Source: Thermoguttaceae bacterium (lineage in GTDB: Bacteria > Planctomycetota > Planctomycetia > Pirellulales > Thermoguttaceae). Taken from it: a DNA stretch of 64,000 nucleotides. A model generated the notes under the pieces. It made no database searches. It saw nothing but the letters and a program-made list of their open reading frames with translations, and had not been told where the DNA came from. The DNA is taken from NCBI GenBank assembly GCA_025060325.1, contig JANXBW010000022.1, forward strand, positions 9,304-73,303. The letters run 5' to 3'. Made by a program: the position numbers and the translations under genes. The number at the start of each line of letters is the position of its first letter. Within the stretch, counting starts at the first letter, position 1. This document shows positions 11,870 through 15,252 of the stretch, in pieces.

Positions 11870-12667
11870 ATGCCTTTTCTTGCAGAGGTTGGGAACGCAG
11901 CTCTTGCGCTAACCACAGCACTTGTCATCACGGTTGGGCTGATCCTGTGGCAGACCCAGCGTCAGTGGCGGCAAGGATTGAGGCGGCCGCGGTGGTTGGA
12001 GGAAAGCGAATCCTGGACCGGTCCGCCGGCCGTCACGGAAGAGGATCTAGCACGCTGGGAAGTCCGGCTGCACGAGCTTGCCCGGGATATCCAGGGTGAG
12101 CTCAATAGCAAGATGGCCATTTTGGCGGAGCTGGTGGCTCGGGCCGAACACCTAGCCCAGCGACTCGAGAGCCTACTTGGGGCAGACACCCTACCTGCCG
12201 ACTCAAAGAGCGGAGCAGCCCGGATAAGCGATGACCCGCCAGAAGGTCCCCCGCCGCAAAGGGGCAGGATTTTGGATGATCCTACCGTCGGCAAAAGCCA
12301 AGGTCCTAATGAAGCGGCTTCATGTTTAAATAAAGGTGCCATTTGCGAACAAAATGCCCGCCACTTCGCGCTCCCCAGCTCTTCAGGTCAGGAAGTACCC
12401 CGGTCGGCATATGGGCTGAAGACTTGGCATGGCATTAACGACCACGACGAGGCCGTAACGCCTGCAAACACTCCGGGGAAAACCACCGGACTGGCTAGTG
12501 GTGAAATAGAGCCATCAGGGCACCGGCCGGAGGGTACCTCGCGCTTTGCGCAGGTGTACGAGCTTTTGGCTGCCGGGCTTTCACCCCAGGAAGTTGCCAA
12601 CCAAACCGGTCTTGCCGTGGGCGAGGTCGAACTTGCCCTGCGGGTATTACGCCTTCGCGGTACTTGA
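11870..12667 (+). CDS. Membrane-anchored hypothetical protein with DUF6115-like helix-turn-helix tail
   Basis: The 265-residue protein begins with one membrane helix (residues about 8-27, ALALTTALVITVGLILW) followed by a helical segment rich in Glu/Arg (about 50-105). A Pro/Gly/Ser-rich linker of about 110 residues comes next. The last 40 residues (FAQVYELLAAGLSPQEVANQ and on) look like the DUF6115 or sigma-70-region-4-like helix-turn-helix seen at the end of many small bacterial membrane proteins. The start at 11870 has AGGAGGT eight bases upstream. It lies 175 bp after larC. The function is unknown; a cytoplasmic DNA- or protein-binding tail tethered to the membrane is inference. Confidence 0.75.
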   Translation: MPFLAEVGNAALALTTALVITVGLILWQTQRQWRQGLRRPRWLEESESWTGPPAVTEEDLARWEVRLHELARDIQGELNSKMAILAELVARAEHLAQRLESLLGADTLPADSKSGAARISDDPPEGPPPQRGRILDDPTVGKSQGPNEAASCLNKGAICEQNARHFALPSSSGQEVPRSAYGLKTWHGINDHDEAVTPANTPGKTTGLASGEIEPSGHRPEGTSRFAQVYELLAAGLSPQEVANQTGLAVGEVELALRVLRLRGT

Positions 12668-13172: not shown

Positions 13173-14756
13173 ATGGACCCAATCGATATTGTCGACATCC
13201 TTCAGGTGCTTACCCAGATCCTCCGAGCCGGCGCGGAATATGTAGTTGGGTTTATCGCGGGGTTGGTAGTGGCCGGCTCGGTCACGCTGGGGATCTGGCG
13301 CCTGGTGAGCCGACGTACACACAAGATCCTTCAAGAGCTTCAAACCGAGCTAAACACGGAACGAAGGAATCGGACCTATATTCAGGAGTTGTGCGATAAA
13401 ACAAAAGCCGAGGTGGCGGACCTTCTTCAAAAGCTTGCCCTTCTTAATCGCGAGCTGGAAGAAGCCCGTCAGCAAGAAGTGAAATTGCAAGAACAACTCG
13501 CCCACACGGAGCTCAAGCTGCACACCGAAGCAGAAGCGCATGAACAACTGGAGGCCAAACTCAGGCAGCTTGAACAAAAATATGCGGCTGAACAACAGGC
13601 ATGGCAGGAGGAAGGGGAGCGGCTTAATTCCGAATGCAACCAGCTCAAGAGTATTCTGGAGGAAAAACAGCGCGAAATTGATCAACTGAGATGCGAAAGG
13701 GCAGAACTCCTTAAGTCGGCCGAGAGCCTGCAGGCCCAATTAGACAACGCTTTCAAGAACCTTAGCGAGGCGTGGCATCGGCCGTCAAGTCACCTGATAC
13801 CTGATTTCCTCCTTTTGACCGAGCGTCGCTGTCCGATTATTGCATTTGTCAACTTGAAAGGAGGTGTGGGCAAGACTACAATCAGTGCCTACCTGGGGGC
13901 AGCCTTGGCGGAAAAAGGTAAACGGGTGCTGTTAGTTGACTTGGATTACCAAAGTTCTCTGACGCAGCTTTGCCTTCCGCCGGAACGCCGGCCGTGGAGC
14001 TACCAGGGACCCGCCAGCCATCCTAAATCGTGGAGTTGGGTCGGGCGATTTCTCGAGGATCCCGAGGGCAATTTGGATGTTGCGCTGTGTCAGGCGCATA
14101 GGGTGCCGGCTCGGCACGATTGGAGGCTATACATCTGGCCATCTCACGAGCGGCTCGATGAAGTGGAAACCCAGCTATTTGTCGAGCTGTTTTTTTCTCC
14201 GCCGACGCAAGAAACGATCGATCAGCGCTTTCGGCTACGTCGCGTCCTCCACCAGCGTGAAATCAACCAATGGTTTGACATCGTGCTCCTCGATTGTCCG
14301 CCCCGGCTAACGGCGGGCTGCGTTAACGCCCTAATGGCGGCCGACTGTTACCTGGTTCCTGTCCGCCCGGACGCCACATCTGGGGACGCGGTTCCACGGC
14401 TCATCCGCTGGGTTGACAAATTTCAGGAATTGCGACGCGACCATCCGCTTGAGTTGCTGGGTATTGTGTTCAATGAAGCAAGTAAACGGGCCAATTCCCC
14501 TGGCGGGGTGATACGCGATCATGGCGAAATGATTGAGGAGATCGGGCGCCGGGCCGAGGCCGCCGCCAAAAGGAAGATCTATCGGTTCCAAACCTTTGTG
14601 AAAGCTGACAGCGACTTTGCCCGGGCCTCGAAAGGCGGCGGACTAGCTTGGCCCAACCTTCGCAACTCGCGGATTTGGCCGGTTTTTCACGATTTGGCAT
14701 CGGAGGTGCTGCGGCGGCTCAAAGAGCTAGGAGATGCATTGCATGAAGGTGCGTGA
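13173..14756 (+). CDS. Membrane-anchored coiled-coil ParA/MinD-type ATPase
   Basis: This 527-residue protein has an unusual architecture. A membrane helix (about 24-43, YVVGFIAGLVVAGSVTL) is followed by a long Glu/Gln/Lys-rich coiled coil (about 49-200) and then a ParA-family ATPase domain. The ATPase shows the deviant Walker A KGGVGKTT (about 229-236) with the signature lysine, an A-prime stretch LLVDLDYQSSLTQL and a Walker B-like IVLLDCPPRL. ParA proteins dimerise on ATP and use a protein partner to trigger hydrolysis. The ATG at 13173 fits the AAGGG ribosome-binding site; a GTG 11 codons earlier is possible. The 3' end overlaps the next gene by 14 bp, so the two are surely co-expressed. 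It is not a plasmid ParA: no ParB or parS is adjacent, and the membrane and coiled-coil segment is foreign to that class. BY-kinases share membrane, coil and P-loop, but the Tyr-rich tail is missing. Confidence 0.88.
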   Translation: MDPIDIVDILQVLTQILRAGAEYVVGFIAGLVVAGSVTLGIWRLVSRRTHKILQELQTELNTERRNRTYIQELCDKTKAEVADLLQKLALLNRELEEARQQEVKLQEQLAHTELKLHTEAEAHEQLEAKLRQLEQKYAAEQQAWQEEGERLNSECNQLKSILEEKQREIDQLRCERAELLKSAESLQAQLDNAFKNLSEAWHRPSSHLIPDFLLLTERRCPIIAFVNLKGGVGKTTISAYLGAALAEKGKRVLLVDLDYQSSLTQLCLPPERRPWSYQGPASHPKSWSWVGRFLEDPEGNLDVALCQAHRVPARHDWRLYIWPSHERLDEVETQLFVELFFSPPTQETIDQRFRLRRVLHQREINQWFDIVLLDCPPRLTAGCVNALMAADCYLVPVRPDATSGDAVPRLIRWVDKFQELRRDHPLELLGIVFNEASKRANSPGGVIRDHGEMIEEIGRRAEAAAKRKIYRFQTFVKADSDFARASKGGGLAWPNLRNSRIWPVFHDLASEVLRRLKELGDALHEGA

Positions 14757-15252
14757 TCTTCGTGAGTACCTTGCCCGACTTTGGGAGTTCGGACAGTTCC
14801 TGGTCACCGGAAAGTGCGACGGCGAGCCAAGAAGTCACCCCTTAAAGATGCTCAGTCAATTGGGCCAAGCATTGGCCCCTTTCGATGAGTTTGAAATCAG
14901 CAGTTTCGGCGAGTTCCTCACCCGCTGTAAACAATACGAAGAAACTGGCCTCATTGCGCGCCGCGGCTCCAGCAAGAGTAAAAAGCCCACCGTCCTCCCG
15001 GAGGAGGAAATCACCTCGTGGGTCAACAGGCTGGAAACCCTTCGGGAAAGCATTACTCCGACGGCCGTCACCTATCAAGAGATCGACCAGCAATGCAACC
15101 TTTTAGCATCTTTAAAAAAGGATTACATCTTGGCAATCGGACGACGGTTGGGTATCCCACTGGACGCAAAGAAGAAAAAAGACCTACTTGTTGAAGGAAT
15201 CCGCAACCATTTCCGCGAACTAAAGGCTACTTTGGAGCGGGCAGCTTTCTAG
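14743..15252 (+). CDS. Small helical partner of the ParA-like ATPase, SAP-like C-terminus
   Basis: The 169-residue protein is unrecognised at family level. It starts inside the last codons of the ATPase gene (14-bp overlap). GGAG lies about nine bases before the ATG at 14743; an ATG at 14734 would add three residues. The N-terminal half is charged and helical, with a basic linker RRGSSKSKKP near residue 75. The C-terminal 45 residues, including LKKDYILAIGRRLGIPLDAK followed by KKKDLLVEGIRNHF, resemble the SAP/Rho-N helix-extended-loop-helix that often binds DNA or RNA. That similarity is by eye. By position it is a candidate regulator or cargo adaptor of the ATPase, as ParB-like or small activator proteins are for other ParA ATPases. 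Confidence 0.75.
   Translation: MKVRDLREYLARLWEFGQFLVTGKCDGEPRSHPLKMLSQLGQALAPFDEFEISSFGEFLTRCKQYEETGLIARRGSSKSKKPTVLPEEEITSWVNRLETLRESITPTAVTYQEIDQQCNLLASLKKDYILAIGRRLGIPLDAKKKKDLLVEGIRNHFRELKATLERAAF

Follow-up and report, generated by a model that had tools for sequence, protein, structure and literature searches.

ATPases of the ParA/MinD type have been described as general positioning machines, and many of them are orphans whose partners are unknown (PMC10241942). In known systems, a partner protein links the ATPase to its cargo (PMC10241942). MinD docks on the membrane via a C-terminal amphipathic helix and is released on MinE stimulation (PMC9178275). McdA, the ATPase of the McdA/McdB carboxysome positioning system, acts on the nucleoid. 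In this work, we describe a two-gene system in a 64,000-nucleotide stretch of the genome of a Thermoguttaceae bacterium (assembly GCA_025060325.1, contig JANXBW010000022.1, positions 9,304 to 73,303), which will be called the window. The system is formed by a ParA-type ATPase gene (13173..14756) and a partner gene that overlaps its end (14743..15252); both are on the + strand, as are the features described within them.

The pair shares with ParABS (Soj/Spo0J and plasmid ParA-ParB) a ParA fold with the KGGVGKTT motif and a partner gene directly downstream, but its ATPase is predicted to be membrane-anchored with a stalk and lies on a branch apart from canonical ParAs, its partner matches no ParB model, and no parS-like site is seen in the window. 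Like the MinD/FlhG-type systems (MinCDE), it would bring together a ParA/MinD ATPase at the membrane and a small partner, whereas the predicted anchor here is an N-terminal membrane helix. With McdA/McdB it has in common a ParA ATPase and one cognate cargo-linking partner; the likeness of McdA to the window ATPase is a structural (Foldseek) match only, and McdA is not known to have a membrane helix. The LEM/HeH inner-nuclear-membrane proteins MAN1 and Src1 also link a HeH-type module to a membrane, which is an analogy and carries no claim of homology; they are eukaryotic and are not known to have such an ATPase. In one respect the window system is predicted to be the reverse of other ParA/MinD systems: its ATPase would stay at the membrane, fixed by a stalk and a predicted transmembrane helix, and would not alternate between bound and free states on the nucleoid or membrane. 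Our leading explanation, held tentatively and with slightly more doubt than conviction, is that the two components form a tether, switched by ATP and built on a ParA/MinD-type ATPase, which links DNA to the inner membrane.

A conserved ATPase-partner gene pair

The ATPase reading frame extends from the ATG at 13173 to the stop at 14756 and encodes 527 amino acids, comprising a membrane helix, a long stalk helix and an ATPase domain, as assigned from the open reading frame, Pfam, the structural model and Foldseek. The partner gene encodes 169 amino acids with a basic isoelectric point (pI 9.0), and its start overlaps the ATPase end by 14 base pairs (bp; 14743-14756). Both start codons are backed by homologues, the first by the ATPase of a genome from the window's genus (G002, MDPLDAV..) and the second by the pattern M[KN][VI].. 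in most rows. The coordinates, the overlap and the basic partner reported in the initial annotation agree with these results.

When 84,980 species genomes were searched with the C-terminal half of the ATPase, 124 relatives were obtained, and the best 80 loci were kept. Family membership has been defined as at least 190 bits against a 57-row ATPase profile (A6). This score is reached by 72 of the best 80 loci, while eight (L136, L138-L143 and L145) fall below it and were left out of the family. One of the latter, L138, comes from Thermoguttaceae; its ATPase frame is broken, and the partner is present. In a local calibration, the family rows, which lie within the profile, score at least 249.7 bits, and 23 other ParAs score at most 153.9 bits.

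A partner match of at least 20 bits begins less than 300 bp past the ATPase end in 67 of the 72 family loci. Four of the other five stop at a contig edge (L122, L126, L128 and L137), and at L132 the partner match begins ~355 bp past the ATPase frame. Since the partner profiles were trained on scan loci, a separate test was made on 27 loci found later. Ten of these were set aside: L205 and L207, where the contig ends at the ATPase, and eight whose partner shares 99% identity or more with a row used in training (L179, L180, L189-L193 and L195). All 17 remaining loci, which have room downstream, show a same-strand downstream partner match of at least 40 bits, and their partners are at most 68% identical to any training row. 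Among the later-found loci, the partner frame begins more than 200 bp after the ATPase frame at L201 and L208, and at L198 and L202, where the pattern for the KGG motif matched no open frame, strand and position served for the count. Three further untrained loci, from Hyphomonas, are positive with the A9 profile (L239, 43.9 bits; L241, 57.5 bits; L240, 26.7 bits), so that the partner is downstream in 20 of 20 untrained loci with room.

As a control, loci of other ParA-like genes were examined, and a partner match above 20 bits was obtained at one of 22. At this locus (L042 1233-2959, genome G026), a non-family ParA-like ATPase is overlapped at its end by a downstream gene that scores 28.5 bits with the partner profile, and the SAP-like partner may also serve other ParAs. 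None of 80 ParA loci on viral contigs has a partner match of at least 25 bits, the best being 16.7 bits; this score belongs to a similar overlapping downstream gene at L253.

The window's own family, the Thermoguttaceae, was searched over 119 genomes with a three-ATPase profile. Twenty genomes match at E <1e-30, and the next matches, from 1.7e-25, include canonical ParAs. At all 14 loci with downstream room (window included), the partner gene begins within the end of the ATPase gene, the two sharing 1 to 53 bp with the start codons chosen. A partner profile from the gut lineage of the family, which fails to detect the partners of G002, G447 and the window, all of them shorter, matched 13 of the 119 genomes. 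Its 12 full-length matches all adjoin a family ATPase, and its other matches are a contig-end fragment in G491 and a giant protein in G022. Altogether, the ATPase-partner pairing is conserved across distant genomes, beyond chance. The initial annotation had treated the two genes as a module, and the partner does stand beside most homologues of the ATPase.

The partners of different phyla form one coherent family when their sequence profiles are compared. The planctomycete and alphaproteobacterial profiles align in hhalign at 98.5% probability (E 3e-15, 150 columns), the planctomycete and gut-lineage profiles at 94.5%, and the alphaproteobacterial and gut-lineage profiles at 88.2%.

Anatomy and classification of the ATPase

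The N-terminal membrane helix covers residues 21-50 of the model (13233..13322), and the 19-residue hydropathy maximum of the protein, 2.11, starts at residue 24, in agreement with the membrane helix first annotated. In the AlphaFold model (24 rows, mean predicted local distance difference test score (pLDDT) 81.1), this is followed by a single continuous helix of 130 residues, 71-200 (13383..13772), which is predicted to be a coiled-coil stalk. The block pLDDT of this helix is 50 at its beginning and 67-93 from residue 81 onward. Segment 47-196 contains no proline and 37% charged residues, and its heptad-like hydrophobic periodicity was matched by 12 of 2000 shuffles. The coiled coil of about 150 residues in the initial annotation is therefore retained as a long, periodic helix, its length having been slightly generous. 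The model also has a C-terminal helix at residues 502-526.

The ATPase domain matches Pfam AAA_31 at 1.9e-31. The best solved matches of the model are Soj/ParA structures (Foldseek E 2.0e-16, TMt 0.85), with McdA lower among the structural matches (E 2.1e-13). The deviant Walker A motif KGGVGKTT (KGGxGK type) is formed by residues 229-236 (13857..13880), and the Walker B region DCPPR by residues 374-378 (14292..14306), with Asp374 as its acidic residue. With the ParA fold, these motifs identify a complete ParA/MinD ATPase, as had been claimed. Alignment of 57 family ATPases shows that Trp201 (13773..13775), directly before the ATPase domain, is invariant, as are Lys229 to Lys234, Leu253, Asp256, Asp258, Gln260, Leu263, Asp374, Pro377, Arg378 and Pro396.

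An N-terminal membrane helix is present in 45 of the 57 aligned ATPases at a hydropathy threshold of 1.6. The 12 under this threshold are nine gut Thermoguttaceae rows, L084, L130 and L144 (1.53). The start of L084 was trimmed, and its longer frame gives a hydropathy of 2.41, i.e., the membrane helix is present. The distance from the membrane helix to Walker A ranges from 56 to 238 residues across the family. In the tree, the gut Thermoguttaceae rows nest among membrane-anchored rows, and the loss of the membrane anchor in this lineage is therefore probable.

By its sequence, the ATPase family forms a separate branch apart from canonical ParAs. In the maximum-likelihood tree, a single branch with support 100/99 stands between the 57 family rows and 27 canonical ParA rows; the window ATPase is within the family side, and its exact position there is weakly supported. 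The 25 NCBIfam models listed of 55 matched, ParA, MinD, BcsQ and BY-kinase among them, are all under their cut-offs. The BY-kinase model TIGR01007 gives 23.6 bits against a cut-off of 108.05, which upholds the earlier statement that the protein is not a BY-kinase, and the MinD model TIGR01968 gives 53.5 bits against 212.9. The expectation that the ATPase would stand outside known families is supported by the tree and by these listed models. The initial annotation had also noted no parS and no ParB. No 16-mer with fewer than four mismatches to the canonical parS consensus occurs in the 64-kb window, a different site being possible, and the 13 Pfam families for which the 66 partners gave matches at 0.01 do not include a ParB model.

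One PADLOC model, PDC-M28B of the candidate defence system PDC-M28, resembles the window ATPase in that it matches part of the stalk and the ATPase weakly (48.6 bits, 1.5e-13; PADLOC gives no score cut-off). It differs in that only 3 of 57 family ATPases match it at 1e-10 (best 3.4e-15) and that the partner is unmatched. The PDC-M28 candidate identity was dropped after the count of 3 in 57; tested partners are unmatched as well. The name PDC-M28 was not found in the open-licence PMC literature searched.

The partner protein and the proposed tether

The partner model (15 rows, mean pLDDT 86.9, predicted template modelling score 0.49) shows an N-terminal helical lobe, residues 3-68 (14749..14946), which is a candidate ATPase-binding part. 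This is followed by a basic linker, residues 69-86 (14947..15000), assigned from the model and the composition and of low confidence at residues 75-82. The third part is a C-terminal HeH/SAP-like module, residues 108-162 (15064..15228), which is a candidate DNA-binding part according to its VIA-align matches. These residues align with residues 103-157, in the C-domain, of T4 endonuclease VII (Z 7.9, rmsd 1.3, 55 residues), and lower rows include 3'hExo (Z 6.1) and DEK (Z 5.8). Endonuclease VII, 3'hExo and DEK contain HeH/SAP nucleic-acid-binding folds. Judged from the model, the C-terminal lobe resembles such folds and is likely to be a DNA-side fold. Two homologous partners pass the Pfam SAP cut-off of 23.9 bits (L087, 36.2; L130, 27.3). 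At E 0.01, SAP matches 2 of 66 partners and Rho_N one of 66 (8.7e-05). The only NCBIfam match among the 66 partners is ku70, in one row (0.00035). The isoelectric point is above 8.5 in 79% of 68 partners. The SAP/Rho-N-like end proposed in the initial annotation is thus supported by the modelled fold and by the Pfam matches of relatives, while the window partner has no Pfam match of its own. Sequence matches of the partner in the PDB, to mitochondrial L12 (E 0.036) and BcsR (1.4), were not taken as real, nor were the best hits of the partner profile searches (E 0.012 and 0.026).

The membrane helix, the stalk helix, the ParA fold, the partner model and the conserved gene pairing were computed directly. 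A ParA/MinD ATPase with a cognate partner and this anatomy leads to an ATP-switched DNA-membrane tether as the simplest function. The N-terminal helix would fix the ATPase in the membrane, and the helix of ~130 residues (~19 nm at 1.5 Å per residue), probably paired as a coiled coil, would project the ATPase head. ATP binding would close a sandwich dimer and thereby create a docking site for the N-terminal lobe of the partner, whose C-terminal HeH/SAP-like module would hold DNA via the basic linker. Hydrolysis, probably stimulated by the partner, would bring about release. DNA, rather than a protein assembly, is taken as the cargo because of the fold and charge of the partner and for no other reason.

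A different cargo would change this scheme. In this explanation, the SAP-like module would bind an assembly of protein or RNA, to be placed at the envelope by the anchored ATPase. We regard this as unlikely, since the partner is basic, its C-terminal lobe is like those of nucleic-acid binders, and no recurrent third (cargo) gene is found within 6 kb across lineages by blastp clustering. Nevertheless, McdA/McdB or ParC-type systems position their cargos in this way, the membrane anchor removes the need for nucleoid binding, and 3'hExo occurs together with the histone mRNA stem-loop in the matched entries. The partners of ParA/MinD ATPases are also very diverse, and several of the ATPases have non-DNA cargos (PMC10241942).

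Several observations weigh against the DNA-membrane tether. DNA binding by the partner is something that we infer from its fold and charge, and for HeH/SAP folds RNA or protein is a possible ligand as well. The earlier suggestion of a fold search of the 169-residue partner gave a divided result: Foldseek with the partner model returned nothing with E <0.001 (best E 0.86), and the T4 endonuclease VII match came from VIA-align. A Z of 7.9 for a helical fragment may reflect a common arrangement, and values below 13 can occur by chance; unrelated helical proteins also align with the partner, such as a phage portal (Z 6.5) and RFC (Z 6.2). Searches with the window partner against Pfam, NCBIfam and PADLOC gave no match at E values as high as 1. 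The gut Thermoguttaceae lineage keeps the gene pair without the membrane helix, and therefore the anchor is not indispensable. Finally, the occurrence of the pair is patchy, as seen in Hyphomonas (5 of 42 genomes) and at a syntenic site without the pair in G001, which argues for an accessory system and against a core chromosome segregation role.

Distribution, neighbourhood and alternative origins

The best 80 loci carry the labels of Planctomycetota, many Alphaproteobacteria (Hyphomicrobium, Rhodomicrobium, Hyphomonas, Henriciella and Limibaculum), a few Verrucomicrobia metagenome-assembled genomes (MAGs) and one Myxococcales MAG. Isolates among the carriers include Singulisphaera sp. GP187, Zavarzinella formosa and Hyphomicrobium sp. 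LHD-15. The ATPase and partner of L120 (Henriciella label) and L121 (Puniceicoccaceae label) are identical, and L121 is a probable bin contamination because it repeats L120 exactly. In a sample of the phylum, one of 392 genomes has the family, namely the window's own genome, and in the order of a Hyphomicrobium genome 24 of 397 have it, at least five of them previously known carriers; four candidates were scored per genome in both counts, so members may be missed. The ATPase is found in the five Hyphomonas genomes at 275-343 bits, the others scoring at most 143 bits. In G002, the pair adjoins the same TIM-barrel gene as in the window. The congener G001 has the nickel-insertion gene, the one after it and the TIM-barrel gene in the same order, with neither the pair nor a detectable remnant of it. 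Besides the family ATPase, 19 of 20 carrier genomes contain one or more ParA-like matches that score in the canonical range (<160 bits), and G537 has only its two family copies at the threshold used. Two convergent modules in one genome were observed at G716:C24, G537:C500 and G544:C35 (L189, L209, L183 and L184).

Budding or stalked genera are among the carriers: Hyphomicrobium, Rhodomicrobium, Hyphomonas and some Planctomycetota. In H. neptunium, the origin passes through the stalk, and how it is moved is described as unknown (PMC6650430). A Hyphomonas-wide role in the budding machinery was rejected: the ATPase is present in only 5 of 42 genomes and therefore is not the general budding machine of that genus.

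No third gene family recurs across lineages within 6 kb of the pair, according to blastp clustering of predicted genes, and neighbours are common within lineages. In the gut lineage these are sugar-kinase, hydrolase and glycosyltransferase-like genes, as judged by eye, and recR neighbours the pair in some Alphaproteobacteria. A uvrB-like gene adjoins the pair in four of five Hyphomonas carriers (L239-L241 and L243), with variable genes around it, one of which is alarmone-synthetase-like. One of the uvrB copies was confirmed as UvrB by search, and the others were judged by sequence likeness. This locus looks like an insertion hotspot. In the window, positions 11870-12667 encode a 265-amino-acid protein that matches DUF2802 weakly and under the cut-off (0.0013), and a similar gene adjoins the pair-less G001 site.

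The hotspot bears on a role in defence against incoming DNA, in which the partner would seize foreign DNA and the membrane ATPase would immobilise it at the envelope or trigger a response. Such a role is quite improbable in our estimate and is a weaker explanation than the tether. It is consistent with the patchy accessory distribution, the uvrB-like neighbour and variable genes in Hyphomonas, and a giant phage-like protein of G022 (described below) that ends in a partner-like C-terminal domain, a possible decoy. Against it, the gene neighbourhoods hold together within lineages, Pfam, NCBIfam and PADLOC show neither a nuclease nor a toxin domain in the window pair, and PDC-M28B accounts for few of the ATPases and none of the tested partners. 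The neighbour set, which points in the same direction, consisted of 132 proteins, namely 128 of 235 picked and four hand-chosen from L240 and L241. Partners, many short or distant proteins and the Thermoguttaceae loci were dropped from it, as were 12 loci whose ATPase was missed by the gene caller, of which two (L240 and L241) were re-added. Of the 140 Pfam families matched by these neighbours, the 25 listed are mostly housekeeping. PADLOC gives 58 models on the same set, and none of the 25 listed matches more than four proteins. Specific-looking PADLOC matches are mad3-type (1.3e-96), BrxHI-type helicases (3e-74), DpdJ-type (4.3e-71) and PbeA-type, the last on four proteins. The neighbour result is read only as ‘no clear defence signal’ because it has no matched control. 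From the two-gene positioning, tethering or defence module of the initial annotation, positioning and tethering are thus the parts that the anatomy fits, and defence is the part that finds no clear signal among the neighbours.

The pair could also be a plasmid partition cassette captured by the chromosome, which now stabilises a genomic region or is left over. Its ParA ancestry, its two-gene layout and the convergent second copies in some genomes would fit this origin, which we nonetheless consider very unlikely. In 72,556 plasmid records, there is no match to the alphaproteobacterial ATPase (1e-20) or its partner (1e-3), nor to the window partner at 1e-2. The window ATPase matched 1818 plasmid records, none covered to 80%. 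Of four that were opened, three are annotated with shorter ParAs (~320-340 amino acids), with a ParB-family neighbour annotated in two of these, and the fourth is unannotated. The alphaproteobacterial ATPase has no match in phage records at 1e-15, a search made with the ATPase and not with the partners. Two viral-contig scans with ATPase queries gave no relative, and in a third the best 80 of 276 ParAs all lie below the family score, with 163.6 bits as their highest value on the family profile. The membrane anchor and the invariant residues also argue for a conserved function. A plasmid or viral origin was rejected, as no member was found in plasmids, phages or viral contigs with the queries used.

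The G022 protein mentioned above is found in a carrier of the pair, on a different contig (L324 4161-9953, G022:C110), and has 1931 amino acids. Its last 84 residues are 39% identical to the C-terminal domain of the G022 partner (E 2e-17). Similar proteins to its residues 1202-1391 occur in 22 phage records, of which 17 are Prochlorococcus phages; the best match has 35.6% identity (E 2e-16), and the phage proteins are hypothetical. Its two neighbours have no phage record match and no Pfam family. From these sequence likenesses, a phage-like element may carry a copy of the partner C-terminal module in this single case, and the protein is a possible phage-borne decoy or co-opted DNA-binding module. 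A further idea, as improbable as the defence role, is a widespread, undescribed class of membrane-outward ParAs in which a stalked and permanently anchored ATPase captures DNA with a HeH/SAP partner and is used against or by incoming DNA elements. If it were true, the phage-like giant protein with the DNA-side domain of the partner would act as a decoy, and the pair would trap invading or replicating DNA under ATP control and immobilise it at the envelope.

No description of a membrane-anchored ParA with a SAP-type partner was found in the titles and the opening parts of abstracts in the open-licence PMC literature searched. The family described here is a coherent ParA subfamily whose partner is already identified and which has an unusual N-terminal membrane anchor, and the fold of its partner family can be recognised and is probably on the DNA side. 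According to an old idea, attachment to the membrane serves to segregate or hold DNA (PMC9178275). If the pair is indeed an ATP-switched tether between DNA and the inner membrane, it would revive this old idea in a specific, testable form.

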